From Spirochaetales bacterium Spiro_12 (GTDB lineage Bacteria; Spirochaetota; Spirochaetia; Treponematales; Rectinemataceae), in assembly GCA_001603165.1 (NCBI GenBank), contig LVBN01000065.1, positions 1-64,000 on the forward strand: a stretch of DNA of 64,000 bases, written 5' to 3'. Shown piece by piece: positions 19,891-39,169 of the stretch. The notes under the pieces are model-generated. The model did no database searches and had not been told where the DNA came from. It saw only the letters and a program-made list of their open reading frames with translations. The stretch's first letter is position 1. Each line of letters opens with the position of its first letter. The position numbers and the translations under genes were made by a program.

Positions 19891-19909
19891 AATGGGGTAT
19901 ACTACCTTT

Positions 19910-21028: not shown

Positions 21029-21077
21029 GGGACGGAAACCACATGGGCCGGCTTATTTAAAACGAAAGGGGACACAA

Positions 21078-21905: not shown

Positions 21906-21906
21906 T

Positions 21907-22692
21907 ATGAATCACAACACTTACAGGGTTATCGATTATCACGCCCACCTGGGGCCGGTCTGGAATTTTTATTTGCCGTATAACGACGAGATCGGCATGC
22001 TCGGCTGCATGGATCAGATAGGTATAGACACAACGGTCATATCCACCAATTTGGCTGTCACCGCCGATGTGGTGCGCGGCAACCGCTATACTTTGGAAGT
22101 ATGCCGGCGCAACCCCGGGCGCTTTCTGGGGATGTTCACCGTGAACCCCAATTACCCCGACGTGGCGGAAAGAGAAATAGCCCAGTATTTCGCCCATAAG
22201 GAAATAGTTGGAATAAAAACCCATCCCGAGCTTTCGGGGGATTATCCGCTGAACGGGAAAAACTATGAAGGGATGTTTCGCTATGCCAGCGACCACGGGA
22301 TACCTATCCTCGTCCATACCTATTATGGCGGAGACAGGTTGAGCGTTTTCGAACAGATGGCCAGGGAATACCCCGACGCGCCTCTTATAATAGCCCACGG
22401 TGCGTTGGACTTGGGTACGGGAAAAGCGATTGAACTTTGTAACAAATACCCGAATCTCTATTATGATTTATGCAGCCCGGTCAACAAGCGATACGGGGCG
22501 CTATTGCTGGTCGATAGAGAACTCAACCCCGACAAGGCGCTTTTCAGTACCGACAGCCCGTGGAATGATCCGGCGGTCAGCCTGGGCTCGGTGCTTTTCA
22601 GCGGGGCCGCGCCGGAAAAGTTGCGTAAATGGCTGAGCGGGAATTTTTTAAGGTTATTCACAAGGGCGGCGGCGGTGCTCGGATCCGAATGA
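21907..22692 (+). CDS. Amidohydrolase_2-family metal-dependent hydrolase
   Basis: A 261-residue TIM-barrel hydrolase with all expected ligands visible: IDYHAHLGP (strand 1 HxH), GIKTHPE, ILVHTYYGG, LIIAHGALD and FSTDSPWND (aspartate). Members hydrolyse lactones or amides or decarboxylate aromatic/keto acids. It is separated by a single base from the degenerate paralogue, which suggests equal expression and perhaps a shared complex. A GGCGGGAGG site precedes the ATG. Confidence 0.87.
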   Translation: MNHNTYRVIDYHAHLGPVWNFYLPYNDEIGMLGCMDQIGIDTTVISTNLAVTADVVRGNRYTLEVCRRNPGRFLGMFTVNPNYPDVAEREIAQYFAHKEIVGIKTHPELSGDYPLNGKNYEGMFRYASDHGIPILVHTYYGGDRLSVFEQMAREYPDAPLIIAHGALDLGTGKAIELCNKYPNLYYDLCSPVNKRYGALLLVDRELNPDKALFSTDSPWNDPAVSLGSVLFSGAAPEKLRKWLSGNFLRLFTRAAAVLGSE

Positions 22693-22733
22693 TGGCCCAA
22701 GCCCGAAAGCGGTATATGACAAAGAGAGGTACC

Positions 22734-23813
22734 ATGAGTTTGGATCGAAAAGCAATAGGCGACGATTTTAAAAAGGACATTGCCGCACTCTGCGCTACGC
22801 ATGGAGTTTCGGGCTTTGAGGACGAGACGATCGGTCTGATAAAAAACATGATCCGGGACCATGTGGACGAAATGGATGTCGATGTCATGAAAAACCTTAT
22901 CGCCTTCAAAAAAGGAAATGGCAAGGCAAAGGTCATGATCGTGGCGCATACGGATGAAATCGGCCTCATTGTAAAACGGATAGATTCCAAGGGTTTCCTT
23001 TGGTTTGAGGTGCTGGGCGGAGTAAGGGCCCAGGCTTTATTCGGAAAACACGTGGTGGTCAAAACGGCCCTCGGGAAGCTCGACGGCCTTGTCAATTATG
23101 TGAAACCCGGCCGGCCCGACTTTATGGAGCAAATACCCGATCTTCAGGATTTCTTCATCGATGTCGGCGCAAAAAGCCGGGAAGAGGCCGAGGAGATGGG
23201 CGTGGAAGTCGGCAATCCGATCTCGATCGATTATCCGGTCCATTTCCTGGGCAAGGATGGATCGCGCGTGGCCGGCAAGGCCCTGGACAATAGGGCCTGT
23301 GTTTTTCAGCTTGTGGAAGTTCTCAAGCTGCTCAAAAACGAACAAAACAAGCCCGATATCTATGCGGTTTTTTCGTCCCAGGAAGAAGTGGGCTGTCGCG
23401 GCGCGAAAACCGCAGCGTACAATCTCAAGCCGGATATCGCCATTTCCCTGGACATTGCCATAGCCAACGACCTTTCCGATGTGGCGGACCGCAAAATAAT
23501 CACTGCGCTCGATAAGGGCCCGGTTATAAAGATCATGGATCGATCGAAAACTTCCTCGGTCGGCGTGATTTCCACGCCGAGCGTGGTGGACGGGATGAAA
23601 AAGGTGGCCAGGGAGGCGGGCATCCCTTACCAGCTGGAAGTATATACCGCCGGAACCACCGACTCGGCCACGGTGCATTTGGAGAAAGGGGGTATCGCTT
23701 CGGGTGCCATACTCCTTCCTACGCGCTATGTGCATAGTTACGAACTGGCCTCCGTGCATGACCTCGTTGCGGGCATAGAACTCTTATATTTCTACATAAA
23801 GGCGCTATCATGA
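22734..23813 (+). CDS. M42-family metallo-aminopeptidase
   Basis: A 359-residue protein of the M42 (glutamyl aminopeptidase/FrvX) type. The dinuclear metal site is recognisable: VAHTDEIGL (H,D), KALDNRACV (D), SSQEEVGCRGA (E,E), ISLDIAIANDL (D) and the C-terminal RYVHSYE (H). These cytosolic peptidases form large tetrahedral complexes and remove N-terminal residues; some act as deacylases. ATG 22734 is chosen because MSLDRKAIGDDFKKDIAALC is the family start. Its stop overlaps the next start. Confidence 0.9.
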   Translation: MSLDRKAIGDDFKKDIAALCATHGVSGFEDETIGLIKNMIRDHVDEMDVDVMKNLIAFKKGNGKAKVMIVAHTDEIGLIVKRIDSKGFLWFEVLGGVRAQALFGKHVVVKTALGKLDGLVNYVKPGRPDFMEQIPDLQDFFIDVGAKSREEAEEMGVEVGNPISIDYPVHFLGKDGSRVAGKALDNRACVFQLVEVLKLLKNEQNKPDIYAVFSSQEEVGCRGAKTAAYNLKPDIAISLDIAIANDLSDVADRKIITALDKGPVIKIMDRSKTSSVGVISTPSVVDGMKKVAREAGIPYQLEVYTAGTTDSATVHLEKGGIASGAILLPTRYVHSYELASVHDLVAGIELLYFYIKALS

Positions 23814-24313
23814 AAGAATCGCGTGCGGAGAAAAACAACGCTATCTGCATTTATGAAAAGCTCAAACAACTTGCCGTGGAACTGCCGCCGCATACCTCTC
23901 CGAATGGCAGTTACACCATGACCTCGGAATTCGGAGGGCGGTGTTTTTATACCGCCGGCACGGGCTGTGCTTTGAACGGGAAGCCCTTCGCCGTTGGCCG
24001 CCTGGGAAAGGAAGTTTCGGTCAAGCAAGGGAAGCTGGCCGCCCGTCAATGCGTCTTAAATGTGCTGGCCAACCTGCATGCGTGCCTGGGGGACCTCAAT
24101 CGCATCAACAGGGTGATAAAGACGACTGTCTTTGTCGCGAGCGCGGAGGGTTTCGGTGACCAAAGTTCGGTCGCCGAGGGCGCTTCCGAACTTCTTTTGG
24201 CGCTTTTCGGGCCTGCGGGGCACGGGGTTCGAACCGCCATAGGCACCAGCGCCCTTCCCAAAAACCAAGCGGTGGAAATAGAAATGCTTTTTGAATTGAA
24301 GGAGCCATTGTAA
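23810..24313 (+). CDS. RidA/YjgF-like protein, longer variant
   Basis: A 167-residue member of the YjgF superfamily with the long N-terminal form (LKQLAVELPPHTSPNGSY, 22-39) rather than the compact RidA form. The C-terminal VRTAIGTSALPKNQAVEIEM keeps an arginine at the position of the RidA catalytic residue and the final glutamate. Its activity may differ from enamine hydrolysis. Joined to the M42 gene by an ATGA overlap, so it belongs to the same operon. Confidence 0.85.
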   Translation: MKESRAEKNNAICIYEKLKQLAVELPPHTSPNGSYTMTSEFGGRCFYTAGTGCALNGKPFAVGRLGKEVSVKQGKLAARQCVLNVLANLHACLGDLNRINRVIKTTVFVASAEGFGDQSSVAEGASELLLALFGPAGHGVRTAIGTSALPKNQAVEIEMLFELKEPL

Positions 24314-24327
24314 AAGAGGAGAGACCC

Positions 24328-25089
24328 ATGTTGATACGATGGGACGAATTGACCAAAGATCAATTTGAGCAATATCGAGATACGGCCACGGTTGTCGTCA
24401 ACCTCGCCTCCACGGAGCAGCATTCGCGCCATCTTCCGGTCGGCACCGACGCGATCATCGGCAAGGCCGTGGTGGAGACGGCCGCGGGTTTGGCGAAATA
24501 TCCGGTTCTTGTGTTGCCGCAGGTATGCTTTGGCTTTTCTCCTCATCATCGTTTTGCGCCGGGCTATGTGACCATCGCGCAAAACACCCTGATCTCCCAT
24601 GCCGCGGACATCTGTCGCAGCGTCTGCGAAAACGGTTTCAGGCGAATGTTTTTAGTGAATTCCCACGGCGGCAACCAAGCCTATCTTGCCGCTGTTATCA
24701 ATGAAATAGGCGAACAATATGGCGAAAAATTTTCCCTGATGGCGCTGAGGTATTGGGATATCGCCGGCCCGCGGATAATGGAAATCCGGGATTCCGAATT
24801 GGGCGGGGCGGCGCATGCCGGCGAATTCGAAACTTCGGTGATCATGTATTTACGGCCTGAACTGGTGCAAAAGGACAAAATCGCCGAGGGCCCCCCCGTC
24901 CCCGGAAACCCTTGGTTTCAGATGGACCTGTTGGGGTACAAAAAGTACCTTAAGTATTCGAGTTTCAATTTCCATAACCCCGACGGGCATGTCGGCCAGC
25001 CCCATCTGGCGACCGCTGAAAAAGGCAAGCTTTTTTTCGAGGCGGTGAGCGAGGAATTGGCGAAATTTTTCGATTATTTTCATGTGTAG
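24328..25089 (+). CDS. Creatininase-family amidohydrolase
   Basis: A 253-residue protein of the creatininase/formamide hydrolase family. Metal-binding motifs are STEQHSRHLPVGTDA (E,H,D), NSHGGN and HAGEFETS. Family members hydrolyse cyclic or linear amides such as creatinine and formamidopyrimidines. It follows by 14 nt with an AGAGGAGAG site and is the last gene before the second promoter, completing a set of four hydrolase-type genes behind the AbgT carrier. Confidence 0.88.
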   Translation: MLIRWDELTKDQFEQYRDTATVVVNLASTEQHSRHLPVGTDAIIGKAVVETAAGLAKYPVLVLPQVCFGFSPHHRFAPGYVTIAQNTLISHAADICRSVCENGFRRMFLVNSHGGNQAYLAAVINEIGEQYGEKFSLMALRYWDIAGPRIMEIRDSELGGAAHAGEFETSVIMYLRPELVQKDKIAEGPPVPGNPWFQMDLLGYKKYLKYSSFNFHNPDGHVGQPHLATAEKGKLFFEAVSEELAKFFDYFHV

Positions 25090-25320: not shown

Positions 25321-25521
25321 ATGTCGAAGTACAGTATCGGGATCAATAAGAAATGGTGCAAGTCTTGCGGCATATGCATAGATTTTTGCCCTAAGAACGT
25401 GTTGGGTTTTGACGAAGACGGCAAGGTCACGCTTGTGAACGAAGAGGATTGTATCGGCTGCGAAATGTGCGAACGCCGATGTCCGGACTACGCAATCAAA
25501 GTAGAAGGAAAGGCCAAATGA
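25321..25521 (+). CDS. korD: 2-oxoacid:ferredoxin oxidoreductase, delta (ferredoxin) subunit
   Basis: A 66-residue ferredoxin-like protein with two complete CxxCxxCxxxC clusters (CKSCGICIDFC and CIGCEMCERRC) that would bind two [4Fe-4S] centres and pass electrons from the ThDP active site to ferredoxin. ATG 25321 gives the usual length; an extension to 25255 has no ribosome site. It overlaps korA by 4 nt. Confidence 0.93.
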   Translation: MSKYSIGINKKWCKSCGICIDFCPKNVLGFDEDGKVTLVNEEDCIGCEMCERRCPDYAIKVEGKAK

Positions 25522-26660
25522 AACATCAAACCGTTAGGCTGCTGCAGGGTAATGAGGCCTGCGCGATGGCGGCCCTGGCAGCTGGAGTGGGGTTTTTCGC
25601 GGGATATCCTATAACGCCGGCGACGGAGATAGCCGAGTTGCTGGCCAAAGAACTGCCGAAACGGGGGGGGATTTTCATTCAGATGGAAGATGAGATCGCC
25701 AGCATGGCGGCGGTTATAGGGGCTTCGATAGGGGGCGTCAAGGCGCTTACCGCGACGAGCGGTCCTGGATTTACGTTAAAGCAGGAAAATTTAGGCTATG
25801 CCGCCATGGTTCAAGTACCCTGCGTCGTTGTCGACGTACAGCGCGGAGGCCCCAGCACGGGAATGCCGACGCTGCCATCACAGATGGACGTTATGCAGTC
25901 CCGCTGGGGAACCCACGGGGACCATCCCTGCGTTGTCCTCTGCCCGTCCACCGTCTACGAGTACTATATGCTCACCATCAAGGCGATAAACCTTTCCGAA
26001 CTATTGCGGACACCCGTCATTCTGCTCTCCGACGCGATCGTGGGGCATCTTAGGGAAAAAGTTCGTATTCCCGATATCTCCGAGCTGAAAATAGTCGATC
26101 GTAAAAGAGCGGCCCTGCCGGCTGAAAATTTCATGCCGTTCAAGCCGGACGAAGACGATGTGCCTCCTTTCATGCCTTACGGCATAGGGTATCGATATCA
26201 CATGACAAGCAACAATTATGACGAGGGAGGGTATCCGGCGACGAACGATCACGAGGTCGCCCGCCTTTTGCTTACGCGATTACACAATAAAATAGAAAGA
26301 CGACGCGGCGAGATCATAATGACCGAGGAAATAATGATGGACGACGCGGAAATAGCTCTGTTCGCCTACGGGTGCGTGGCGCGATCGGCTTATAGCGCGG
26401 TCGAGATGGCGCGCGAACGCGGCCTGAAAGTAGGCTTGATAAAAGCGCTTACCCTGTGGCCTTTCCCGAGGGAAGTCGTCGAGAAATATGGCGATAAAGT
26501 AAAAGCGTTCATCGTTGCCGAAATGAATATGGGGCAGCTTGTTGGAGAAGTTGAGCGATTTCTGAAAAATAAAAGCGCAGTCGTCAGGCAGGTCAATAGA
26601 TTTGACGGAAAAATGATAACGCCCGAGCAAATTCTCGACGCTGTAAAAGAGGTGCTGTAA
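25518..26660 (+). CDS. korA: 2-oxoacid:ferredoxin oxidoreductase, alpha subunit
   Basis: A 380-residue subunit with the KorA/VorB landmarks GNEACAMAALAAGVGFFAGYP near the N-terminus, the YPITPATEIAE motif, EDEIASMAAVIGASIGG and TSGPGFTLKQENLGYA. The C-terminal Rossmann-like domain starts around AEIALFAYGCVARSA. With KorB it forms the ThDP-binding catalytic core that decarboxylates a 2-oxoacid to its acyl-CoA. Its substrate cannot be told from these motifs; 2-oxoglutarate, branched-chain and other acids are all handled by close relatives. Confidence 0.94.
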   Translation: MKHQTVRLLQGNEACAMAALAAGVGFFAGYPITPATEIAELLAKELPKRGGIFIQMEDEIASMAAVIGASIGGVKALTATSGPGFTLKQENLGYAAMVQVPCVVVDVQRGGPSTGMPTLPSQMDVMQSRWGTHGDHPCVVLCPSTVYEYYMLTIKAINLSELLRTPVILLSDAIVGHLREKVRIPDISELKIVDRKRAALPAENFMPFKPDEDDVPPFMPYGIGYRYHMTSNNYDEGGYPATNDHEVARLLLTRLHNKIERRRGEIIMTEEIMMDDAEIALFAYGCVARSAYSAVEMARERGLKVGLIKALTLWPFPREVVEKYGDKVKAFIVAEMNMGQLVGEVERFLKNKSAVVRQVNRFDGKMITPEQILDAVKEVL

Positions 26661-27488
26661 ATGAGCGTGCATGCCCAAGATTATCTGAGAATGAAAAAAA
26701 TGCCCCATATCTGGTGCCCCGGCTGCGGCACGGGGATCGTCCTTGGGGCGATTCTGCGGGCGATAGCCTCGGCGGGATATGAGCGCGATGAGGTCATGGT
26801 CATCACCGGAATCGGCTGCTCGGCGCGGACTAACGCCATAATCGATTTCAATACTTTCCAAACGACGCACGGCCGGGCGCTCAGTTTCGCCACGGGGTTC
26901 AAGCTGGCCAGGCCCGAAATGAAAGTGATAGTCATAACCGGCGACGGCGACGGCTCGGGAATCGGCGGGAATCACTTGATCCAAACATGCCGCCGCAACA
27001 TCGATCTCACGATGATTTTGATAAACAACAGCATCTACGGTATGACCGGAGGGCAGTATTCGCCGCTTACGCCCGCCGGCAAATACGCCACCACCTCCCC
27101 CTACGGGATGATAGAGTCTTCTTTCGACGTCTGCAAACTCGTGGAGGGCGCAGGCGCGACCTATATCGCGCGGGCCACGGCATATCATGTGGTGCTGTTG
27201 GAACAATTGATCGCCAAAGGTCTTAAGCACACAGGTTTTTCCTTTATAGAAGCGATTTCCCAGTGTCCCATCGGTTTCGGGCGGCGCAACAACATGAAAA
27301 CCGCGACGGCGATGCTGCAATGGCAGAAAGACAACGCGGTGAACCTGAAAGCCGCGACGGCGATGAGCCCGGACAAGCTGGCGGGCAGGTTTCTCATCGG
27401 GGAATTCGTCGATAAAAAGGCTCCCGAATTGGTGGAGTCTTACGGCGCGCTGATCAAGACCGCGCAGAAGCGAGGGGCGCAGCAATGA
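26661..27488 (+). CDS. korB: 2-oxoacid:ferredoxin oxidoreductase, beta (ThDP) subunit
   Basis: A 275-residue subunit with WCPGCGTGIVLGAI (14-27 region) and the ThDP/Mg2+ signature GDGDGSGIGGNHLIQTC followed by NNSIYGMTGGQYSP. The ATG immediately follows the korA stop. It overlaps korC by 4 nt, which supports a fixed subunit ratio. Confidence 0.94.
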   Translation: MSVHAQDYLRMKKMPHIWCPGCGTGIVLGAILRAIASAGYERDEVMVITGIGCSARTNAIIDFNTFQTTHGRALSFATGFKLARPEMKVIVITGDGDGSGIGGNHLIQTCRRNIDLTMILINNSIYGMTGGQYSPLTPAGKYATTSPYGMIESSFDVCKLVEGAGATYIARATAYHVVLLEQLIAKGLKHTGFSFIEAISQCPIGFGRRNNMKTATAMLQWQKDNAVNLKAATAMSPDKLAGRFLIGEFVDKKAPELVESYGALIKTAQKRGAQQ

Positions 27489-28039
27489 AAAGAAGCGAGA
27501 TAATCATAAGCGGTTCCGGCGGACAGGGCGTCGTTCTTGGAGGAATAATCCTGGCCGAAGCCGCGGCTATCTACGACGATTTGAACGCGACGCACAACCA
27601 ATCCTACGGGCCGGAAGCCCGCGGCGGGGCAAGTAAATCGGAAGTGATAATCAGCGACAAAACTATTCATTTCCCTGAAATTGAGCATCCCGACATTCTT
27701 GTGGCCTTAACCCAGGAAGCCGCCCGAAAATACGGCGGGGCTGTGAAATCCCGGGGAATCATGATCGTGGACGCCGGGGTCGAAATAGACGAGGCCTTGG
27801 GAAGTTCGATACGCGTATACCGCCTGCCTATAGCGAAAACGGCGACCGAAGTGGTCGGAAAAGAAATGACGATAAATATGGTCACATTGGGCGCCTTGGT
27901 CGCTATCACCGGGATAGTGAGCGAACAAGCCTTGGAAAAGGCGGCGCTGGCCCGGGTCCCCGAGGGTACGGAAGAGCTCAACAAAAAGGCGCTGGCGGAG
28001 GGGTCCACGCTGGCGGGGTCTCATAAGCACAGGGCTTAA
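27485..28039 (+). CDS. korC: 2-oxoacid:ferredoxin oxidoreductase, gamma subunit
   Basis: A 184-residue subunit that starts with the signature SGSGGQGVVLGGIILAEAA and contains SYGPEARGGASKSEVIIS, both typical of the CoA-binding gamma subunit. It completes the four-subunit enzyme. The AbfD-like gene starts only 17 nt downstream, after AAGCGGAGGG, so the two are surely co-transcribed. Confidence 0.94.
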   Translation: MKRSEIIISGSGGQGVVLGGIILAEAAAIYDDLNATHNQSYGPEARGGASKSEVIISDKTIHFPEIEHPDILVALTQEAARKYGGAVKSRGIMIVDAGVEIDEALGSSIRVYRLPIAKTATEVVGKEMTINMVTLGALVAITGIVSEQALEKAALARVPEGTEELNKKALAEGSTLAGSHKHRA

Positions 28040-28056: not shown

Positions 28057-29493
28057 ATGGCTATCAAAACAAAGGCGGAATACATCGAATCGCTGAGAAA
28101 ACTACAGCCGGTCGTATATATGTTCGGCGAGAGGATCGACAATTTCGTTGACAACCCAAGAATCAGAGCCGGCATAGAAGCCACCGGCGAAACCTACGCG
28201 TTGGCCGAATCTTTCGAACATCGCGACGCGATAACGACCAATAGCCCTCTGATAGGGGAAAAGATCAATCGTTTCACCCTTCCTCCCGCCTCGATCGAGG
28301 ATCTCGTCGCGCGGGTGAAAAACAATCGACTGCTCGGCGGCCGGGTGGGGACCTGCTATCAACGATGCACGGGAATGGACTGTCTCAGCGCGCTGGCGAT
28401 AGTGACCTACGATATCGACCGGAAATACGGAACGACATACAACGCCAGGTTCTTGGAATTTCTCAAGTACGTACAGAAAAACGACCTGACCTGCAACGCC
28501 GGCGTGACCGACGTAAAGGGCGACCGCTCCCTGAATCCCGCCGAACAGGCGGATAAGGACTTGTATCTGAGGGTCGTGGAGGAACGCAAGGACGGAATCG
28601 TCGTCCGCGGAGCGAAAGCCCACCAGACAGGTTCGCTTTCATCGCACGAAATCATTGTCCTGCCGACGCGCGCTCTGCGAAAGGAAGATAAGGAATACGC
28701 GGTCGCCTTCGCCCTGCCGATCGACACGCCGGGGATCATTCATGTGGTGGGAAGGTCCTCTTTGGATATGCGGGAGCTTCAGGGCTGCGACACCGGAAAT
28801 ACCAGATATTCGAAGTACTGTCCCACGGTCATTTTTGACAACGTGTTCGTCCCTTGGGACAGGGTGTTCCTGTACGGCGAAACGGAGTTTGCCGGCGACT
28901 TGGTTATGCGGTTTTCCTCGTTTCACCGGCAGAGCCACGGCGGCTGCAAGGCGGGGAAAATAGATTGCATGATCGGAGCGGCGTTGAACATGATGGACTA
29001 CAACGGTACGACCAAGGCGGGCCATCTGCGGGGAAAGGTCATCGACATGATTCATCGTTCCGAAACCTTATACGGCTGCAGTCTCGCCGCGTCCTATGAA
29101 GGCAAAAAAGAACCGTCGGGGACGTATTTTGTCGATCCTGTTTTGGTCAACGCCTCCAAACTGCACGAAGGCAAGGAGATGGCCGAAGTGAGCAGGCTCC
29201 TCATGGATATCGCCGGCGGCTTTGTCAGCGATTTGCCCTCCGATAAAGATTTTGAAAACCCCACGATAGGTCCTTTGCTGAAAAAGTATCTGAAAGGAAC
29301 GGCCGACACCCCGGTGGAAGACAGGGTGAAGATGCTTCGACTGGTGGAGAAAATCACCCTTGAAAGCGCGGACAGCGTGTCGGACATACACGGAGGCGGA
29401 TCTCCCGAAGCCCATCGGATAACCATAATGCGCGAGTCGAAGGTTGGCGACAAGAAGGCTTTGAGCAAAAGGCTGGCCGGAATAGAAGAATGA
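28057..29493 (+). CDS. abfD: 4-hydroxybutyryl-CoA dehydratase-type [4Fe-4S]/flavin enzyme
   Basis: A 478-residue member of the HpaB/AbfD family. The clostridial AbfD cluster ligands are C99, C103, H292 and C299; here C100 and C104 (GTCYQRCTGMD) and H290 and C297 (FHRQSHGGCKAGK) have identical spacings within each pair, 4 and 7. This separates it from the flavin-only 4-hydroxyphenylacetate hydroxylases. The enzyme dehydrates 4-hydroxybutyryl-CoA to crotonyl-CoA by a ketyl-radical mechanism and is oxygen-sensitive. The thiolase, HADH and crotonase genes that follow fit this reaction. A related 4-hydroxyacyl-CoA substrate remains possible. Confidence 0.88.
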   Translation: MAIKTKAEYIESLRKLQPVVYMFGERIDNFVDNPRIRAGIEATGETYALAESFEHRDAITTNSPLIGEKINRFTLPPASIEDLVARVKNNRLLGGRVGTCYQRCTGMDCLSALAIVTYDIDRKYGTTYNARFLEFLKYVQKNDLTCNAGVTDVKGDRSLNPAEQADKDLYLRVVEERKDGIVVRGAKAHQTGSLSSHEIIVLPTRALRKEDKEYAVAFALPIDTPGIIHVVGRSSLDMRELQGCDTGNTRYSKYCPTVIFDNVFVPWDRVFLYGETEFAGDLVMRFSSFHRQSHGGCKAGKIDCMIGAALNMMDYNGTTKAGHLRGKVIDMIHRSETLYGCSLAASYEGKKEPSGTYFVDPVLVNASKLHEGKEMAEVSRLLMDIAGGFVSDLPSDKDFENPTIGPLLKKYLKGTADTPVEDRVKMLRLVEKITLESADSVSDIHGGGSPEAHRITIMRESKVGDKKALSKRLAGIEE

Positions 29494-29521
29494 TGCCTTA
29501 GGCGATTGAAGGAGACGGTTC

Positions 29522-30703
29522 ATGAACAAAGTGGTGATAGCAAGCGCCGTCAGAACGGCGGGCGGCGGTTTCGGGGGCAGCTTTAAAAATCTCACGGCGG
29601 TGGACCTCGGCGCAGCGGTTATCAAAGAATCGCTGCGGAGGGCGGGCCTGGCTCCCGAAGCGGTGGGGCAGGTTATTTTCGGCAACGGATGGCAGGCCGG
29701 GGTCGGCCCGAACCCGGCGCGGCTCTGTACGGTAAGAAGTGGTCTTCCGGTCAGCTGCCCGGCGTTTACCGTGAATATCCGCTGCGCCTCGAGCCTGCGC
29801 GCCATAGAGCTGGGAGCCCTGAGCATCGCCGCCGGAGAGGAGGAGATTGTCATAGCGGGCGGAACCGAATCGAGCACCAATGTGCCGTACATAATACCCG
29901 GTTTGCGATGGGGGCAGCGGATGGGAGACGGGGCGGCCTACGACGTGCTGCACCGCGACGGGTTTATGTGTTCGCTGGCCGGGATGCTGATGGGAAACAC
30001 GGCGGAACTTCTTGTGGAAAAGTACGGCATATCGCGCAAAGAACAGGACGAATTTTCGGCCGAGAGCCACATAAAAGCCCTAAGGGCGATGGAAGAAGGG
30101 AGCTTCGACGAAGAGGTTTTGGCGCTGGAAGTCAGGGACAGGAAAACCACCAATTGGGTTAAGAACGAAGAAATTCCGCGGAAAGACATTTCCCTGGAAA
30201 AACTCGGGAATCTGCCGCCGGTATTTCTCGGCAACGGCACGATCACGGCTGGAAACAGCTGCGCGTTGTGCGATGCAGCTTCTGCCCTGGTTCTGATGTC
30301 GGAAAGAAGGGCCAAGGAATTGGGAGTTAAGCCATTGGCCGAGATACGGTCTTACTCTTACGTGGCGCTCGACCCAAAGCTCATGGGGCTGGGGCCGACG
30401 CTGGCCATTCCCGCGGCGCTGAAAAAAGCAGGATTAGAGTTGGGCGATATTGATCTTATAGAGCTGAACGAGGCTTTCGCAGCCCAGGTTATCGCCTGCG
30501 ACAGGGAGCTTAAAATGGACATGGGCAAGCTCAACGTGAACGGCGGCGCCATAGCTCTCGGACATCCTGTGGGAGCGACGGGCGCTAAGATATTGACGAC
30601 GCTCCTGTATGCCTTGAAGAAAAGAGACAAAAATTTGGGCCTGGTGAGCCTCTGCATAGGAGGAGGCCAGGGCGTCGCGCTCATCGTGGAACGGGTTAAT
30701 TGA
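29522..30703 (+). CDS. Thiolase (acetyl-CoA C-acetyltransferase type)
   Basis: A 393-residue thiolase of standard length with the acyl-binding C88 (NIRCASSLRA), the H348 in ALGHPVGATGAK and C378 in CIGGGQG. It would cleave acetoacetyl-CoA (or a related 3-oxoacyl-CoA) to acetyl-CoA. It follows the AbfD-like gene by 28 nt with a GAAGGAGACGG site. Confidence 0.94.
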   Translation: MNKVVIASAVRTAGGGFGGSFKNLTAVDLGAAVIKESLRRAGLAPEAVGQVIFGNGWQAGVGPNPARLCTVRSGLPVSCPAFTVNIRCASSLRAIELGALSIAAGEEEIVIAGGTESSTNVPYIIPGLRWGQRMGDGAAYDVLHRDGFMCSLAGMLMGNTAELLVEKYGISRKEQDEFSAESHIKALRAMEEGSFDEEVLALEVRDRKTTNWVKNEEIPRKDISLEKLGNLPPVFLGNGTITAGNSCALCDAASALVLMSERRAKELGVKPLAEIRSYSYVALDPKLMGLGPTLAIPAALKKAGLELGDIDLIELNEAFAAQVIACDRELKMDMGKLNVNGGAIALGHPVGATGAKILTTLLYALKKRDKNLGLVSLCIGGGQGVALIVERVN

Positions 30704-30724
30704 CGCGAAAGGGAGGGGGAGAAG

Positions 30725-31609
30725 ATGAAAACCGTATTTGTGATAGGATCAGGCACGATGGGCAGGGGAATAGCCCAGGTGGCGGCGCAGGCGAAGTACG
30801 AAGTATATCTGTCGGATATACAACTCGATATTGTCAAGAGAAACATGGATATTGTGGAGGCCGGGCTCCAGCGACAGATAGAAAAAGGAAAAATAACCAA
30901 AGGCGAGGTCGGAGACATCCTCGGACGAATCCAGATGGTCCAGAATTTGGAGAACCTGGAAAAAGCCGATTATGTGATCGAAGCGGTGCTGGAGGATGTG
31001 GCGCTGAAGCGGGAAATATTCAAGGAAGCGGACAGAAAGGCGAAACCGGAAGCCATTCTCGCTTCCAATACGACATCCTGTTCTATTACGGAAATCGCTT
31101 CCGCCGTCGCGGCTCCCGAACGCGTGATAGGCATGCATTTCTTCAATCCTCCAGTCGTGATGCAGCTCGTTGAGCTTATGCCGGGCATCCTCTCTTCCCG
31201 AAGGACGGTGGAAAAGGCCAAAGAGTTCGTCGTCAGCTTGGGCAAAGAAACGGTGACGACGAAAAAAGAAGGCCCGGCGGGCGTGACCAGCCGGATATTG
31301 GCCGGACTGCTCAACGAGGCGATATGGGTGTTGCAGGAGGGAATAGCCTCCGTCGAAGCGATCGATCGGGCCATGGTATTGGGGTGTAATCATAAGATGG
31401 GGCCCTTCGCGTTGATTGATTTGATCGGAGTCGATATTCATTTCGCAAAAACGCAGATGTTGTACAAAAAAACCGGCGACGCTCGATACCGACCCTGCTA
31501 CCTGCTTGAGCAAATGATGGCGGCGGGCCTTCTCGGCAAAAAGTCCGGGCGGGGCTTTTACGATTATTCGAAAGACCCTGTCGTTCCCACGGCATTTTTC
31601 GATAAATAG
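30725..31609 (+). CDS. 3-hydroxyacyl-CoA (3-hydroxybutyryl-CoA) dehydrogenase
   Basis: A 294-residue single-domain dehydrogenase. NAD-binding motif VIGSGTMGRGIAQVAA (6-21), catalytic H138 (GMHFFNPPVVM) and partner E150 are in place, with the C-terminal dimerisation domain ending LGKKSGRGFYDYS. It oxidises 3-hydroxyacyl-CoA to 3-oxoacyl-CoA for the thiolase. A GGGAGGGGG site precedes the ATG. Confidence 0.94.
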   Translation: MKTVFVIGSGTMGRGIAQVAAQAKYEVYLSDIQLDIVKRNMDIVEAGLQRQIEKGKITKGEVGDILGRIQMVQNLENLEKADYVIEAVLEDVALKREIFKEADRKAKPEAILASNTTSCSITEIASAVAAPERVIGMHFFNPPVVMQLVELMPGILSSRRTVEKAKEFVVSLGKETVTTKKEGPAGVTSRILAGLLNEAIWVLQEGIASVEAIDRAMVLGCNHKMGPFALIDLIGVDIHFAKTQMLYKKTGDARYRPCYLLEQMMAAGLLGKKSGRGFYDYSKDPVVPTAFFDK

Positions 31610-31636
31610 CCTGAAAACTTGGGAAGGCGGTACGCT

Positions 31637-32416
31637 GTGAAAACCACATATGTTGTTTACGAAAAAAAAGACTCCATCGGGCGGCTGACTATCCAACATC
31701 CTCCCATGAACACGCTCTGCGACGAAATGGTGAGCGAACTCGATCGCCTGCTTTCCACGATGGAAAACGACGGCGATCTGAAAGCGCTGGTAATCACGGG
31801 AGCGGGGGATAGGGCTTTTATGGCAGGCGCCGATATCGGAGAGCTGAAACAGAGGAACTTTAAACTAGGGCGCAGTCAGACAAAACGACGACAAGATGTG
31901 TACAACAGAATTTCGCATCTTCAGGTTCCCACGGTGGCCGCCGTCAACGGCTACGCCCTGGGGGCAGGCTTGGAGCTGGCCCTGTGCTGCAGCATAAGGG
32001 TCGCCTCGGAAAAAGCGAAGTTCGGGGCGCCGGAAATCAACTTGGGAATCATCCCCGGAGACGGCGCCACACAACGTCTGCCAAGAATAGTCGGATTGGG
32101 CAGGGCCATGCATTTGGTGCTTACCGCCGAGATAATAAACGCCGCCGATGCCTTGCAATACGGCCTTGTCACAAAGGTGTTTCCCTCCGGCGATTTGGAG
32201 GCGGAATCGCAAAACCTGGCCAAGACTTTGGCGAAAAGGGCGCCGCTCGCCTTAATGTACGCAAAAGATGCGTTGAACAACGCTTTCGATATGTCGCTTT
32301 CGGCGGGATTGACGATGGAGTCCTATCTCCATGCCTTGGCCTGCGCGAGCGGCGATAAAAACGAAGGAGTTGCGGCTTTCCTGGAAAAACGAGAGCCGGT
32401 ATTTCGAGGGGAATAA
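31637..32416 (+). CDS. Enoyl-CoA hydratase (crotonase)
   Basis: A 259-residue crotonase. Both catalytic glutamates are present: E113 in GAGLELAL and E133 in GAPEINLGIIPGDG; the oxyanion segment is FMAGADIGEL (61-70). It would hydrate crotonyl-CoA to 3-hydroxybutyryl-CoA, linking the dehydratase to the dehydrogenase. The start is GTG at 31637, nine nt after GGAAGG; ORF extension to a TTG at 31619 is less likely. Confidence 0.92.
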   Translation: MKTTYVVYEKKDSIGRLTIQHPPMNTLCDEMVSELDRLLSTMENDGDLKALVITGAGDRAFMAGADIGELKQRNFKLGRSQTKRRQDVYNRISHLQVPTVAAVNGYALGAGLELALCCSIRVASEKAKFGAPEINLGIIPGDGATQRLPRIVGLGRAMHLVLTAEIINAADALQYGLVTKVFPSGDLEAESQNLAKTLAKRAPLALMYAKDALNNAFDMSLSAGLTMESYLHALACASGDKNEGVAAFLEKREPVFRGE

Positions 32417-32476: not shown

Positions 32477-33751
32477 ATGTTTGAATGGAATGGCAAAACG
32501 CAGGCCGGGTTGCCGAGGATCATTTCGGTAAGGCAGGCGTTCAATACATCCTGCACAAACATTGAAACAACAATTCGCTCGGAATTGAACAAACCAGCGA
32601 TAAAAAAACATCTGCACCCCGGCCTCAATGCCGCCCTCGCTGTCGGCAGCCGCGGCATCGGAAGAATCGACGCGATTGTCCGATCCGTCGCTGAAGAACT
32701 CAAAAGCCAGGGGCTCAATGTATTTATCGTTCCCTCGATGGGAAGTCACGGCGGCGCGACGGCGGAAGGCCAGGCCGCCTATTTGGCGGGCTACAATATA
32801 ACCGAAGAGACGATGGGCGTTCCCATTCGATCTTCGATGGAAGTCGTCGAACTCGGCGAGGTCGAAAAGGGAGTGCCGATTTATTTCGACAAACTCGCCT
32901 TTGAAAAGGCCGATTTGATAATTCCCATCAACCGGGTCAAATGCCACACAGCTTTTAGAGGGACCGTGGAAAGCGGATTATACAAGATGCTGGCGATTGG
33001 CATGGGCAACCATATCGGCGCCTCGGCTATCCATAGCTTGGGTTTCGCCCGTTTCAGGGAACTAATCCCCAAGGCGGGGGAATTTATTCTGGAGCGCGTA
33101 TCTTCCGTAAAATTTGGGGTGGCTGTCGTCGAAAACGCCGAAGACTTGCCGTATTTGATCGAGGCGGTCCCCTCCGCCGAATTCAAAACCCGCGAGCCGG
33201 AGCTTTTGAAACTATCCTGGTCCCTCATGCCTCGCTTGGATTTTAAAAAGATAGATCTTCTCGTCGTCGGGGAATTAGGCAAAAATATTTCCGGCGCCGG
33301 CCTCGATCCAAACGTGACGGGGCGGTTTTGGATGACCCACATGGAAGACGGCCCTTTGCTGTGCGAAAGGATCGTCCTGCTCGACCTGACTATGGAATCC
33401 CACGGGAACGCCATGGGAGTGGGAATGGCGGATGCGATAACCAGAAAGCTGCTGGACAAGATTGATTTCCACGCTACCTACACGAACGCGATAACAGCGG
33501 GCAGGATCGAAAAGGCACGCATCCCCATGGTGATGAAAGACGATCGCGACGCCATAAAAATAGCGTTGCAGGCGATAGGGCTGGCGCCGGGACAAAAACC
33601 CCGGGTAGTCATCATAAAAAATACCCTGGAGCTGGAGCACATCTACGTATCCGAAGGATTGGCCGAAGAAGCTCGCATGCACAACAGCTTGGAAATAATG
33701 GGCGATCCGCAAGACATGGTTTTCGACGAGGCGGGGAACCTGATTTTATAA
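32477..33751 (+). CDS. LarA-like (DUF2088) nickel-pincer racemase-family protein
   Basis: A 424-residue protein of the lactate-racemase LarA N-terminal-domain family. Candidate active-site residues are H91 (SMGSHGGAT), H157 (RVKCHTAF), K170 (GLYKMLAIG) and H186 (SAIHSLG). In Lactobacillus LarA they would be H108, H174, K184 and H200, and the 66-residue and 16-residue spacings are the same, but the K is three residues further from the second H. Such enzymes racemise or epimerise 2-hydroxyacids using a Ni pincer nucleotide. No LarB, LarC or LarE gene lies in the window. Ribosome site GCGGAGGAAG. Confidence 0.78.
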   Translation: MFEWNGKTQAGLPRIISVRQAFNTSCTNIETTIRSELNKPAIKKHLHPGLNAALAVGSRGIGRIDAIVRSVAEELKSQGLNVFIVPSMGSHGGATAEGQAAYLAGYNITEETMGVPIRSSMEVVELGEVEKGVPIYFDKLAFEKADLIIPINRVKCHTAFRGTVESGLYKMLAIGMGNHIGASAIHSLGFARFRELIPKAGEFILERVSSVKFGVAVVENAEDLPYLIEAVPSAEFKTREPELLKLSWSLMPRLDFKKIDLLVVGELGKNISGAGLDPNVTGRFWMTHMEDGPLLCERIVLLDLTMESHGNAMGVGMADAITRKLLDKIDFHATYTNAITAGRIEKARIPMVMKDDRDAIKIALQAIGLAPGQKPRVVIIKNTLELEHIYVSEGLAEEARMHNSLEIMGDPQDMVFDEAGNLIL

Positions 33752-33858: not shown

Positions 33859-35118
33859 CTAGGTCGATTCTACCAGCAGATCGCAAATAACACCTACGTA
33901 TATTTTTGCCGCATTTATTACATCGACTATATCCACATCCTCATTGTATGAATGGATACCTTCCGTATTAGAAGGGCCATATTGCAGGGTAGGTATTCCT
34001 TTTAAGCGATAGTATCTGGCGTCGCTGGATGCCCACTGATATGCGGGAATAACCCGCTTATTCCACACTGACTCCGCATTTTTCACTAGGGTTTTGACGA
34101 TAGGTTCTGATACTTCCGTGAAATTCGCTTCGCTGGTTTCGTATTTATAACCCACCTTGTCGAGGTTTAGTTCATGCAGTAATCCTTCGAAATTGGAAAT
34201 AAGTTCTTCAGAACTCAGACCAATGGGGATTCTGATATCGATGTCCGTTTCGCAAAGATCGGGAACCATATTAACTTTCGTTCCACCCTTTATAATGCCC
34301 GGATTGACAGTCACTGAATCGATCACATTCCCCACCCCCGGCCTAGCAAGCTTTGCTTCGGCCATATCTTTGGAATCGATGAGCACTTGGTGCTGGGTCG
34401 GTGAATAGCTTCCTTTGATTTTTCGAAGTTCATCGATATGGCTTAGAATTTTCATTGTTTTTAAAATTGCATTTTCGCCGACATAGTTTCCTATGCTCCC
34501 GTGAGCTGCCTTGCCCGCTACGCTTAAATGTATCCGTACCTGACCTTTCTGCCCTACTTCGCAGGTATCGGCCCCTGTTGGTTCTGCAACAAGACACACG
34601 AAGGCATTATCTGCGTATCCGTTCTCCACGAGCCATTTTGTCCCGAAAGACCCCCCGGTTTCTTCGTCTGGAACGACATGGATTTCTACTCTGCCGTTTA
34701 ATGGGACTTTTTCGTCATGCACCAGAGCCATCGTAAATAAAGCTGCCCCGAGTCCGCATTTCATGTCTGAGGTGCCTCGGCCCCGTATTGCGGAAGAGGT
34801 TATTTCTCCGCCATATGGATCAAAATTCCATCGTGATTTATCTCCGGCGGGGACGACATCGCAATGACCATTGAAAACAAGTGAAGGCCCTTCGCCTATC
34901 CCTGCGACTATGCTCGGATATTTAGAATCAGGGCCGACAAGCTTATGCTTTATTCCTTTATTGCTCAGATAATTTTGTATAAACAAGACTATATCATCAA
35001 CGTTCCCCGGAGGATTCTCGCTCGGGATTTTCACCATATCGGAGCAAAGCTTGATTAATTCCTCACTTCTTTTGTCGATACTAGCCCAAAGCGTTTCTTT
35101 AATGGATAGTGCTGCCAT
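33859..35118 (-). CDS. M20-family metallopeptidase (ArgE/DapE type)
   Basis: A 419-residue cytosolic metallohydrolase. Active-site motifs: FNGHCDVVPAGD (H,D), GRGTSDMKCG (bridging D), PDEETGGSFG (catalytic E,E) and the C-terminal GIHSYNEDVD (H). Family members deacylate N-acyl amino acids or cleave dipeptides. The ATG at 35118 has an AGGAGAT site; an open extension to 35235 overlaps the ATPase gene. Its position at the end of the opp operon suggests that it processes the imported peptide or acyl-amino acid. Confidence 0.93.
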   Translation of the reverse strand: MAALSIKETLWASIDKRSEELIKLCSDMVKIPSENPPGNVDDIVLFIQNYLSNKGIKHKLVGPDSKYPSIVAGIGEGPSLVFNGHCDVVPAGDKSRWNFDPYGGEITSSAIRGRGTSDMKCGLGAALFTMALVHDEKVPLNGRVEIHVVPDEETGGSFGTKWLVENGYADNAFVCLVAEPTGADTCEVGQKGQVRIHLSVAGKAAHGSIGNYVGENAILKTMKILSHIDELRKIKGSYSPTQHQVLIDSKDMAEAKLARPGVGNVIDSVTVNPGIIKGGTKVNMVPDLCETDIDIRIPIGLSSEELISNFEGLLHELNLDKVGYKYETSEANFTEVSEPIVKTLVKNAESVWNKRVIPAYQWASSDARYYRLKGIPTLQYGPSNTEGIHSYNEDVDIVDVINAAKIYVGVICDLLVEST

Positions 35119-35150
35119 TCTTATCTCCTGAATACTATGATCATATAAAA

Positions 35151-36128
35151 TTATAGGGAAAGCTCTTCCGCCCTCCAGCAGGCTACCGCCCTGCCTGACT
35201 CTATAGTTTTGAAAACTGGAGTATCGGTGAGGCACTTTTCAATACAGTATTCGCAACGCAACGCGAACCTGCAGCCGGGTTTCGGTTCTATTGGCGACCC
35301 GATTTCGCCCTTCAGAATCGTCATTGTCTCGTCGGTCTTGGATTCTATTTTAGGTATTGCAGATATAAGTGCGTGACTGTAGGGGTGATATTGATGGGCA
35401 AATAGGTCCTTAGCCGGCGACAACTCAATGATTTGTCCGAGATACATAACCGCGATTTCATCGGATATATGTTTTACCACCGCCATATCATGGGTAACGA
35501 ACATATAGGTTAGTCCGAGCCTATCTTGCAGGTCTTGCATTAAATTGAGAATCTGGGCTTGAACGGATACGTCAAGCGAAGAAACAGGTTCGTCGCAGAC
35601 AATGAATTGCGGTTCGAGGGCCAATGCTCGTGCAATCCCGATGCGTTGGCGTCTTCCTCCATCGAGTTCATGCGGGTACGATGAGGATAAGCGGTCCTCC
35701 AGCTCGACCATTTCCATTAGTTTTTGAACCTGCTTCAATAATTCTTTTTTTCCTGAAACCCGTTTGTGAATTATCAGCGGTTCTGCGATTATAGAAGCTA
35801 CGGACATTCTAGGATCGAGGGATGAATATGGATCCTGGAAAATAATCTGCATTTTCTCCCGCATGATTCTTAACTTGTTTTTTTCGAGCGAAGTGATATC
35901 AATACCGTTGAATACGACGGAACCGCTTGTCGGCTCGATCAAACGAAGAATTGCCCGACCGGTGGTTGTTTTTCCGCAGCCGGATTCTCCTACTACACCG
36001 AGAGTTTTGCCTTCTTGGATAGCGAAACTGACATCGTCTACTGCGTGAAGCATACCTCTGGGGGTGGTAAAGTATTTTTTGAGGTTTTTCACCTGGAGAA
36101 TTGGTATCATATCGCTGTGATTATTCAT
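35151..36128 (-). CDS. oppF: Oligopeptide ABC transporter ATP-binding protein (OppF/DppF type)
   Basis: A 325-residue ATPase with Walker A GESGCGKTT, Walker B FIVCDEPVSSLD and the oligopeptide-family C-terminal extension with cysteines (CRFALRCEYCIEKC). The ABC signature is LDGGRRQRIGIARAL where most OppF proteins have FSGGQRQR, a mild deviation. Start chosen at 36128, overlapping oppD by 8 nt; ATG 36110 is an alternative. Confidence 0.93.
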   Translation of the reverse strand: MNNHSDMIPILQVKNLKKYFTTPRGMLHAVDDVSFAIQEGKTLGVVGESGCGKTTTGRAILRLIEPTSGSVVFNGIDITSLEKNKLRIMREKMQIIFQDPYSSLDPRMSVASIIAEPLIIHKRVSGKKELLKQVQKLMEMVELEDRLSSSYPHELDGGRRQRIGIARALALEPQFIVCDEPVSSLDVSVQAQILNLMQDLQDRLGLTYMFVTHDMAVVKHISDEIAVMYLGQIIELSPAKDLFAHQYHPYSHALISAIPKIESKTDETMTILKGEIGSPIEPKPGCRFALRCEYCIEKCLTDTPVFKTIESGRAVACWRAEELSL

Positions 36129-37116
36129 TTGCCGCCCCCATCGTATTGGGAATAACACCTTCGTGCATCAGGCACATGACACGTCTATCGGAAATTTTCG
36201 AGACTATCGGAGCTTGCACAGAGCATTCTTCCTTGGCATATGGGCAACGTGGTTTGAAGATGCAACCGCTTGGAACTATGGAAGGATCGGGCATCATCCC
36301 CCGAATGGGAATCAAACGCTCTTTCTCCACCTCTATACGGGGTATGGAGTTTAAAAGACCTTCCGTATACGGATGTAAGGGTTTCGAGAAAACGTCGCGG
36401 AGAGCCCCGAATTCGACAATCCTGCCTGCATACATGATTGCCACATTCTCGCAAACCTGCGCTACGACTCCGAGATTGTGGCTTATCAATATCAGGCTCG
36501 TGTCCAGCTCGTTTTTCAGCTCTTTGATCATTTTGAGCACTTGAGCTTGAATCGTAACGTCCAGCGCGGTAGTTGGCTCGTCGGCGATCAATAATTCCGG
36601 ATTGCATGCCAACGCGATCGCAATAATTACCCGCTGTTTCATGCCGCCCGAGAATTGGTGGGGATATTCATTCATTCGCCCTCTTGGTATTCCTACCATT
36701 TCAAGCATATCCCCGGCTTTTTTCTGTGCTTCGTTCTTATTCGAGGTTCCGTGTATCTCAAGGACCTCCGCGATCTGGTCGCCTACGGTAATTATCGGGT
36801 TCAGCGATGTCATCGGATCCTGGAAAATCATCGATATCTTACTGCCCCTGATGTCTCTCATTTCTTCTTCTGAAAGGAGTGTAAGATCTTTTCCTTCGAA
36901 TAAAATACTCCCTTTAATTATCTTCCCGGTAAGTTTCGGCAATAACCCCATTATTGAATAGGCGGTCGTTGTTTTGCCGGCGCCTGATTCCCCAACAAGT
37001 CCTATACTGCCTCCGCGCGCGAGTTCGAGGCTAATGCCATTGACAGCATGAATGATATTATTGTCGGTGATGTATTGCGTCGTGAGATTATTTATTGAAA
37101 GCAATAGTGATTCCAT
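36121..37116 (-). CDS. oppD: Oligopeptide ABC transporter ATP-binding protein (OppD type)
   Basis: A 331-residue ATPase: Walker A GESGAGKTT, signature FSGGMKQRVIIAIAL, Walker B LLIADEPTTALD, and the C-terminal cysteine-containing peptide-transporter domain (CIFKPRCPYAKEEC). It forms a heterodimer with the OppF-type subunit to power the OppBC channel. It starts 9 nt after the end of oppC. Confidence 0.94.
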   Translation of the reverse strand: MESLLLSINNLTTQYITDNNIIHAVNGISLELARGGSIGLVGESGAGKTTTAYSIMGLLPKLTGKIIKGSILFEGKDLTLLSEEEMRDIRGSKISMIFQDPMTSLNPIITVGDQIAEVLEIHGTSNKNEAQKKAGDMLEMVGIPRGRMNEYPHQFSGGMKQRVIIAIALACNPELLIADEPTTALDVTIQAQVLKMIKELKNELDTSLILISHNLGVVAQVCENVAIMYAGRIVEFGALRDVFSKPLHPYTEGLLNSIPRIEVEKERLIPIRGMMPDPSIVPSGCIFKPRCPYAKEECSVQAPIVSKISDRRVMCLMHEGVIPNTMGAANE

Positions 37117-37125
37117 GGTTGCACC

Positions 37126-38055
37126 TTAACGCTTGAGCTTTGGATCCAGGGCGTCTCTTAAACCGTCGCCGATCAAATTGTAGGCAAGTATTACCGTCAT
37201 GATCGCCAACCCAGGGAAAAGTAGTGTATGGGGAGCATAACTTATGTAAGAACGCGCGTCTGAAAGCATATTTCCCCATTCCGGTGATGGAGGCTGAATT
37301 CCAAGCCCCAAGAAGGACAACGATGTCGCAGAGAGGATGGATTGGGCAATTCCTAGGGTAGCTTGTACAATAATCGGTGCCATGCAATTCGGCATTATAT
37401 GTCTGGCAATGATGCGAAAATCCCTTGCTCCCAGGGCTTTGGCGGCTTCAATGAATTCTTGGTTCTTTACTGTCAATACGGACGCTCTCATCAGCCTTAC
37501 GAAAGCGGGGATGGATGTTATCCCGATGGCCAATAGAAGGTTTTGAAAACTCGGACCAAGAGCAGCGACAATAGCCAGAGCGAATAGTATGTTCGGTATA
37601 GCTAAAAGGATATCGGTACTCCTCATGATGATCGATTCAACCCTGCCTCCGTAATACCCAGCGATCGCTCCAAGTGCGGAGCCGACAACGCATGCAAACG
37701 CAATTGTCGAAAAGCCGATAATCATGGAAATACGGGCACCGTGTATGATTCTTCCCAGAATATCCCTGCCGAAGTTATCAGCGCCAAGGACGTAGAAGTG
37801 GTTGGTGAAGTTGTCCTTGTATTCTATTTCCGCACTGGTAAAAGGTTCGGCGAACGCATTTGATATTTGATTTTGTGTTATAAAGTCGTACGAAAAGAAA
37901 ACATCGGCAAAAATCGCCATTAAAATGTAAAGCACCACTATGAGTAATCCGGCGACGGCGAGCTTATTCTTTCTGTATCTTCTCCAAAACTCTTCGAAGG
38001 CGGTTTTCCTTTTGCCAGTGCTCGCTATTTGTGATATAAAATTATTATTGTCCAT
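37126..38055 (-). CDS. oppC: Oligopeptide ABC transporter permease (OppC type)
   Basis: A 309-residue inner-membrane permease with an N-terminal transmembrane helix (KLAVAGLLIVVLYILMAIFA), a periplasmic loop and the conserved permease core ending EAAKALGARDFRIIARHIMPN, the ATPase-coupling EAA loop. Start at 38055 has GGAG six bases upstream; an in-frame ATG at 38070 overlapping oppB is the alternative. Confidence 0.92.
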   Translation of the reverse strand: MDNNNFISQIASTGKRKTAFEEFWRRYRKNKLAVAGLLIVVLYILMAIFADVFFSYDFITQNQISNAFAEPFTSAEIEYKDNFTNHFYVLGADNFGRDILGRIIHGARISMIIGFSTIAFACVVGSALGAIAGYYGGRVESIIMRSTDILLAIPNILFALAIVAALGPSFQNLLLAIGITSIPAFVRLMRASVLTVKNQEFIEAAKALGARDFRIIARHIMPNCMAPIIVQATLGIAQSILSATSLSFLGLGIQPPSPEWGNMLSDARSYISYAPHTLLFPGLAIMTVILAYNLIGDGLRDALDPKLKR

Positions 38056-38071
38056 GTTTTTCTCCGCCATA

Positions 38072-39088: not shown

Positions 39089-39108
39089 GTGAGATCCTTT
39101 TAAGATAT

Positions 39109-39144: not shown

Positions 39145-39169
39145 TGGTTTCAGCGAAAAAGTGCTCGGA

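Follow-up and report, generated by a model that had tools for sequence, protein, structure and literature searches.

4-Hydroxybutyryl-CoA dehydratase (4HBD) is regarded as a key marker for two kinds of metabolism, the autotrophic hydroxybutyrate cycles and gamma-hydroxybutyrate (GHB) fermentation. The closest described proteins are AbfD from C. aminobutyricum (PDB 1u8v), which ligates its [4Fe-4S] cluster through C99, C103, H292, and C299, and the 4HBD from N. maritimus (6vjr). Mutagenesis of the C. aminobutyricum enzyme, ascribed to Zhang et al. in AEM in 2015, is said to have found E257, Y296, E455, and T190 catalytically essential, and Y296 and E455 have reportedly been proposed to start the flavin radical. 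A related protein is encoded in the window, a stretch of 64,000 nucleotides from Spirochaetales bacterium Spiro_12 (assembly GCA_001603165.1, contig LVBN01000065.1, positions 1 to 64,000 of the forward strand), whose genome is estimated to be 92% complete. A preliminary description of positions 28057-32416 had read this AbfD-like gene and the three genes behind it as a complete route from 4-hydroxybutyryl-CoA to acetyl-CoA. The encoded protein is a member of the AbfD (4HBD) lineage and not an HpaB oxygenase. Of the four residues reported to be essential for 4HBD catalysis, however, only T190 is kept and the other three are replaced. Judging from the neighbouring genes, the protein probably acts on a related short acyl-CoA and not on 4-hydroxybutyryl-CoA itself.

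Searches with phmmer matched the AbfD-like protein to AbfD (1u8v, E 1e-139), to the archaeal 4HBD (6vjr, 1.5e-133), and to HpaB (2.7e-42). An AlphaFold model (predicted local distance difference test score, pLDDT, 86.7) has 1u8v as its best PDB match, with template modelling (TM) scores of 0.95/0.92 and a root-mean-square deviation of 2.3 Å, and the TM score to HpaB is about 0.83. The comparison with AbfD and HpaB that the preliminary description had proposed therefore places the protein closer to AbfD. The claim that C100/C104 and H290/C297 keep the spacing of the AbfD ligands was confirmed, since these residues align without gaps with C99/C103 and H292/C299. The positions of T190 and K300 are also retained in the protein and throughout its clade (site columns). 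The replaced residues correspond to AbfD E257, Y296, and E455 (E/Y/E) and lie as follows:

28057..29493, plus strand: AbfD-like flavin/[4Fe-4S] protein of the clade with Y296 replaced by His, 478 aa
28819..28821, plus strand: codon of C255 at the AbfD E257 position, locally ungapped alignment
28936..28938, plus strand: codon of H294 at the AbfD Y296 position, between ligands H290 and C297
29380..29382, plus strand: codon of S442 at the AbfD E455 position, followed by D443; the three preceding residues are deleted relative to AbfD

All three sites fall in locally ungapped stretches beside invariant motifs, which makes an alignment error unlikely.

The replacements are a property of a whole clade. 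A scan of genome contigs gave 61 homologous loci (loci carry L numbers and genomes G numbers below), of which 59 share 67-81% identity with the query. Their hosts are Syntrophus-like bacteria, Syntrophorhabdus, other Desulfobacterota (including the cultured strain Desulfonema magnum, L058), Peptococcaceae/Syntrophomonadaceae, and a few other metagenome-assembled genomes (MAGs). In a 124-protein tree with HpaB as the root, the His clade, made up of syntrophs, sulfate reducers, and a few Firmicutes, is monophyletic (59 tips, support 1.0) and is sister (0.999) to the canonical E/Y/E clade (49 tips, 0.997); the window protein falls in the former, outside the canonical 4HBD clade. Placement among the oxygen-dependent HpaB hydroxylases, which the preliminary description had set against its own reading, was not seen: the protein nests in the ligand-bearing lineage. 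At position 296, His is invariant across the clade members that cover the site and Tyr is invariant in the canonical clade. At position 455, all covering clade members have Ser and the canonical clade has Glu, and position 257 is Cys or Ala in the clade, Ser in one deep member, and Glu in every canonical member. That deep member (L068/L096), from the window's own phylum and 52% identical to the query, carries S, H, and S at the three positions. Altogether 43 alignment positions (substitutions or gaps) separate the two clades, among them L336R, N372H, G255K, and the deletion before E455. Canonical proteins with as little as 41-46% identity to the query have E/Y/E without exception, which indicates that these residues are tightly held where 4HBD function is presumed. 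A sister clade that has the ligands and lacks E/Y/E means that ligand conservation is not enough for a 4HBD annotation.

The nearest relatives of the window protein are L007 (a Peptococcaceae MAG, 81% identity) and L008 (a Desulfovirgula MAG). Many genomes hold several AbfD-family paralogues, up to nine, as in G444, G437, and G447 (the genomes of L044, L008, and L061). Some of these paralogues (e.g. L131, L135) combine the four cluster ligands with different catalytic residues, and the expansion of the superfamily in such genomes is largely uncharacterised. No second AbfD homologue was found in the window genome. Relatives in its order have no AbfD family member, canonical forms, or more distant family members, and this differing complement makes the window gene look horizontally acquired. 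The tetranucleotide profile of the rest of the contig agrees with the genome at about 0.87-0.97; the operon, at 0.888, is slightly atypical, and its comparison with L007 gives 0.379. An older horizontal transfer is therefore likelier than contamination. A chance or mis-binned contig was considered and rejected, as the contig matches the composition of the genome and the operon is far from L007 in tetranucleotides. The protein at 61084-63009, tried for contig membership, belongs to a family with many paralogues.

The gene partners of the His clade differ from those of canonical AbfD. A SucCD-like ligase pair accompanies 27 of about 60 His-clade loci and 0 of 18 canonical loci (Fisher p = 1.6e-4), korABC genes for a 2-oxoacid:ferredoxin oxidoreductase (KOR) accompany 20 and 2 (p = 0.08), and one or the other accompanies 46 and 2 (p = 8e-7), with p-values that are optimistic because the loci are related. 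Both partners are present in L062. KOR and SucCD alternate along the tree, as would be expected of two enzymes that feed, or draw on, a single acyl-CoA, KOR starting from a 2-oxoacid and SucCD from the free acid. The SucCD-like ligases retain the succinyl-CoA synthetase catalytic motifs. Loci with KOR recurrently contain a D-2-hydroxyacid dehydrogenase, Ldh_2, two kinds of LarA, GlcD-like proteins, IlvD/UxaA-like enzymes, and 2-oxoacid aldolases, and loci with SucCD contain a GntR/FCD regulator and a DAO/Pyr_redox/DUF1667 trio. The trio, whose first member resembles FAD-dependent oxidases of the glycerol-3-phosphate/L-2-hydroxyglutarate type, lies 3' of the AbfD-like gene in L016, L025, L009, L058, L047, L037, and L049; in L016 it begins a few bases from the end of that gene. 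The deep member L096 has the order AbfD-like, GntR, SucC, SucD, aldehyde:ferredoxin oxidoreductase. Structure searches of the transporters and uncharacterised neighbours indicated no substrate.

In the window itself the partners of the AbfD-like gene are:

25321..25521, plus strand: korD, 66-aa 2x[4Fe-4S] ferredoxin subunit of KOR with Fer4 domains, overlapping korA by 4 bp
25518..26660, plus strand: korA, KOR alpha subunit (NCBIfam PRK08659, 538 bits, above cut-off)
26661..27488, plus strand: korB, 2-oxoglutarate-type ferredoxin oxidoreductase beta subunit (PRK09628, 307 bits, below the equivalog cut-off of 364)
27485..28039, plus strand: korC, KOR gamma subunit (PRK08537, 207 bits, below the equivalog cut-off)
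29522..30703, plus strand: thiolase, acetyl-CoA C-acyltransferase family (TIGR01930, 458 bits), catalytic motifs intact
30725..31609, plus strand: 3-hydroxybutyryl-CoA dehydrogenase (HBD) family protein (PRK05808, 336 bits), GSGTMG and HFFNP intact
31619..32416, plus strand: crotonase, short-chain enoyl-CoA hydratase family (PRK05809, 254 bits), both catalytic Glu contexts kept
32477..33751, plus strand: nickel-pincer-cofactor isomerase group 22 of the LarA superfamily (NF052515, 507 bits against a cut-off of 400)

The alpha, beta, gamma, and ferredoxin-like delta subunits of KorDABC lie together upstream of the AbfD-like gene, with 17 bp between the end of korC and its start. The likely start of korA is ATG 25518, although the list of open reading frames (ORFs) begins at an upstream TTG, 25449, and a GTG at 31637 is a possible alternative start of the crotonase. 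All four ORFs of 28057-32416 are present and co-directional with gaps of 28, 21, and 9 bp, and the LarA-type gene begins 60 bp past the crotonase. The preliminary description had the thiolase, dehydrogenase, and crotonase with intact active sites, and this holds within one transcription unit; the thiolase keeps CxS, GHP, and CxGGG. It was also right that no acyl-CoA dehydrogenase is adjacent, as the genes annotated between 21.9 and 33.8 kb include none. The operon encodes neither a CoA-transferase nor a ligase for 4-hydroxybutyrate, and an AbfT-like CoA-transferase (40% identity) is found in the window genome on another contig only.

A LarA group 22 gene also lies near the AbfD-like gene in L008, L019, L020, L024, and L041. 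LarC had no match in the window genome (92% complete), and the LarB and LarE models matched only below cut-off. Among the other genomes with this arrangement, two lack LarC and three have it; group 22 without a detectable LarC was seen in G000, G449, and G450. This reflects either incomplete MAGs or a group 22 that works without the usual cofactor. The NCBIfam model names no substrate for group 22, and none was found in the LarA papers PMC7583248, PMC11770544, and PMC12611868. A protein of about 287 aa recurs near the group 22 gene (L020 12853-13713, L008 2803-3609); it matches no Pfam or NCBIfam model and no PDB structure.

The best explanation, given a probability of about 0.6 as a whole, is that korDABC, the AbfD-like gene, the thiolase, HBD, and crotonase genes, and the LarA-type gene form a single operon, longer than the four-gene span, for the conversion of an organic (hydroxy)acid to acetyl-CoA, and that the AbfD-like protein arose as a sister of 4HBD by neofunctionalisation and acts on a different acyl-CoA. 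The starting 2-hydroxyacid, which the LarA-type protein may epimerise, would be oxidised to a 2-oxoacid by a dehydrogenase encoded outside the operon. As its family suggests, KorDABC would convert the 2-oxoacid to an acyl-CoA by oxidative decarboxylation, and the AbfD-like flavin/[4Fe-4S] protein may then catalyse an elimination or isomerisation at C2-C4 of this acyl-CoA. The product would enter at the level of crotonyl-, 3-hydroxybutyryl-, or acetoacetyl-CoA and, given the intact active sites, could be carried by the crotonase, HBD, and thiolase to acetyl-CoA. Since the AbfD-like protein has lost two acids from its active site and gained H294, its substrate probably bears an additional polar or charged group. 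Candidates are CoA esters of the glutaryl or 2-hydroxyglutaryl type and 3,4-dihydroxybutyryl-CoA, none of which is strongly favoured.

Several points weigh against this explanation. The proposed substrate is read from gene neighbours, and these are heterogeneous across loci (sugar-acid-like, 2-hydroxyacid-like, and SucCD-like). The thiolase, HBD, and crotonase genes lie 3' of a His-clade gene in the window only; L007 has a partial thiolase gene after its AbfD-like gene, 79% identical to the window thiolase. The essential role of E/Y/E is that reportedly found by mutagenesis of the C. aminobutyricum enzyme. The window genome is without another AbfD homologue and would depend on the operon protein if it used 4-hydroxybutyrate. 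Finally, a canonical AbfD also follows korABC at one locus, L143. Two canonical loci bear on the question:

L144 16-8089: textbook-like GHB-to-acetyl-CoA operon from a Peptococcaceae MAG, with canonical AbfD, CoA-transferase, sodium:solute symporter family (SSF) symporter, thiolase, HBD, and crotonase
L143 2660-7896: canonical E/Y/E AbfD after genes for a tripartite ATP-independent periplasmic (TRAP) transporter, a short-chain dehydrogenase/reductase (SDR), and korABC

The L143 arrangement suggests a direct supply of 4HBD from a 2-oxoacid by KOR, and it makes the feeding of an AbfD-type enzyme by KOR a recurrent pattern. KOR linkage alone thus leaves 4-hydroxybutyryl-CoA possible, and for this reason the alternative of a true 4HBD, in which D443 and H294 would substitute for the lost residues and KOR would make 4-hydroxybutyryl-CoA from 5-hydroxy-2-oxopentanoate for a complete route, retains some weight and is rated unlikely. 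It would account for the about 47% structural identity to AbfD, for the retention of the four ligands, T190, and K300, for the thiolase, HBD, and crotonase genes directly downstream, and for the single AbfD homologue in the genome. However, E/Y/E is replaced in all clade members that cover these sites and is held in the canonical clade even among distant proteins, none of the 18 canonical loci has the SucCD linkage, and genomes with a His-clade protein often hold a canonical AbfD too. The genome of L007, G436, has a His-clade operon (LarA, UxaA-like, D-2-hydroxyacid dehydrogenase, IlvD, korABC, AbfD-like, thiolase). A separate contig of this genome carries a canonical E/Y/E AbfD in an operon with a CoA-transferase of the AcetylCoA hydrolase/transferase family, an SSF symporter, a thiolase, HBD, and crotonase. 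The route imagined in the preliminary description is this second G436 operon, run with the canonical enzyme. The identification of the window protein as 4HBD is accordingly not upheld, given the sister clade without E/Y/E, the KOR/SucCD partners, and the separate canonical AbfD in G436. The claim of a complete operon stands for the probable flow to acetyl-CoA and is not supported for entry at 4-hydroxybutyryl-CoA, with E/Y/E lost and no CoA-transferase in the operon.

A dicarboxylic acyl-CoA as substrate is quite improbable. Here glutaryl-CoA (from 2-oxoadipate via KOR or glutarate via SucCD) would be converted to glutaconyl- or crotonyl-CoA, or 2-hydroxyglutaryl-5-CoA to glutaconyl-CoA. A KOR of the 2-oxoglutarate type and ligases with succinyl-CoA synthetase motifs would suit this chemistry, as would a DAO neighbour that resembles L-2-hydroxyglutarate/glycerol-3-phosphate oxidases and a BKACE neighbour that resembles 3-oxoadipate-cleaving enzymes. 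The lost acids and gained His suit an extra carboxylate, and a crotonyl-CoA product would fit the downstream genes. Against this, the operon has no glutaconyl-CoA decarboxylase or electron-transferring flavoprotein, and the sugar-acid-type neighbours of other loci (IlvD, UxaA-like, GntP, 2-oxoacid aldolases) are left unexplained.

Those neighbours are what would favour the dehydration of 3,4-dihydroxybutyryl-CoA, made by KOR from 2-keto-3-deoxypentonate, to acetoacetyl-CoA for the thiolase in an anaerobic sugar-acid route, which is nevertheless improbable. In L007, IlvD, a galactarate-dehydratase-like UxaA, a D-2-hydroxyacid dehydrogenase, and LarA precede the kor, AbfD-like, and thiolase genes; IlvD recurs in L019, 2-oxoacid aldolases of the DHDPS and HpcH/HpaI types in L033, L051, L064, and L066, and a GntP permease in L008. 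The clade consists mostly of Syntrophus-like or sulfate-reducing bacteria, however, which are not known as sugar-acid users, and no such dehydratases were found among the annotated genes of the SucCD loci. A sulfonate reading (sulfolactate to sulfoacetyl-CoA), prompted by Ldh_2 scoring best against L-sulfolactate dehydrogenase, was abandoned, as it offers no explanation for the C4 genes. An oxygen-dependent HpaB-type flavin hydroxylase has a negligible probability, since the Pfam HpaB_N/HpaB domains and weak TIGR02309/TIGR02310 matches below cut-off are outweighed by the phmmer, fold, and tree results, the cluster ligands, and the anaerobic hosts.

With the neofunctionalised sister enzyme as the preferred explanation, the chances are about even that a widespread clade in anaerobes carries a 4HBD-related flavin/[4Fe-4S] enzyme without the Tyr/Glu radical-starting residues, catalysing an undescribed reaction on a different acyl-CoA and linked to KOR or an ADP-forming CoA ligase in a new route from hydroxyacids to acetyl-CoA. 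If homology and cluster ligands were the only criteria for annotation, dozens of syntrophs and sulfate reducers would be credited with the 4HBD pathway. As a natural active-site variant, the His clade also offers a way to probe whether a flavin radical driven by tyrosine and glutamate, as has been proposed, is needed. It suggests, too, that the anaerobic turnover of carbon includes an acyl-CoA step not yet characterised. A literature search on the His clade and LarA group 22 found nothing direct, and a paper on benzene activation merely cites 4HBD chemistry.

Elsewhere in the window, co-directional genes at 10832-25089 encode xylose-isomerase-like proteins, a GFO/IDH/MocA oxidoreductase, a NagA-like deacetylase, an AbgT transporter, an enolase-superfamily enzyme, two amidohydrolases, an M42 peptidase, a Rid-like protein, and a creatininase-like protein, and these are possibly separate catabolic clusters. 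An M20-type peptidase and an oligopeptide/nickel-type ATP-binding cassette (ABC) transporter were read by eye on the minus strand at 33859-40957. ARAGORN places a 90-nt tRNA-Lys at 53849-53938, inside a 450-aa ORF (53202-54554) on the same strand, which may be a false positive.

Compared with known systems, the window protein shares with C. aminobutyricum AbfD and N. maritimus 4HBD the fold, the ligands, T190/K300, the HGxGS motif, and about 47% full-length identity, and differs in the change of E257/Y296/E455 to C/H/S, the three-residue deletion before E455, the separate sister clade, and the gene partners. The HpaB-type 4-hydroxyphenylacetate 3-monooxygenase (2yyg) has the same superfamily fold and Pfam domains, but it lacks the cluster ligands, is 24-25% identical to the window protein, and forms the outgroup of the tree. 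The L144 operon has the thiolase, HBD, and crotonase genes in the same order behind an AbfD-family gene, with E/Y/E, its own CoA-transferase, and no KOR, whereas in the window operon a CoA-transferase is missing and KOR and a LarA-type gene are present. The window KOR shares with OorDABC/KorDABC the four-subunit layout, the ferredoxin-like delta subunit, and NCBIfam matches, but korB and korC score below the equivalog cut-offs and its 2-oxoacid substrate is only putative. The LarA-type gene scores above the cut-off of superfamily group 22, in a genome with no LarC match and with LarB/LarE below cut-off.

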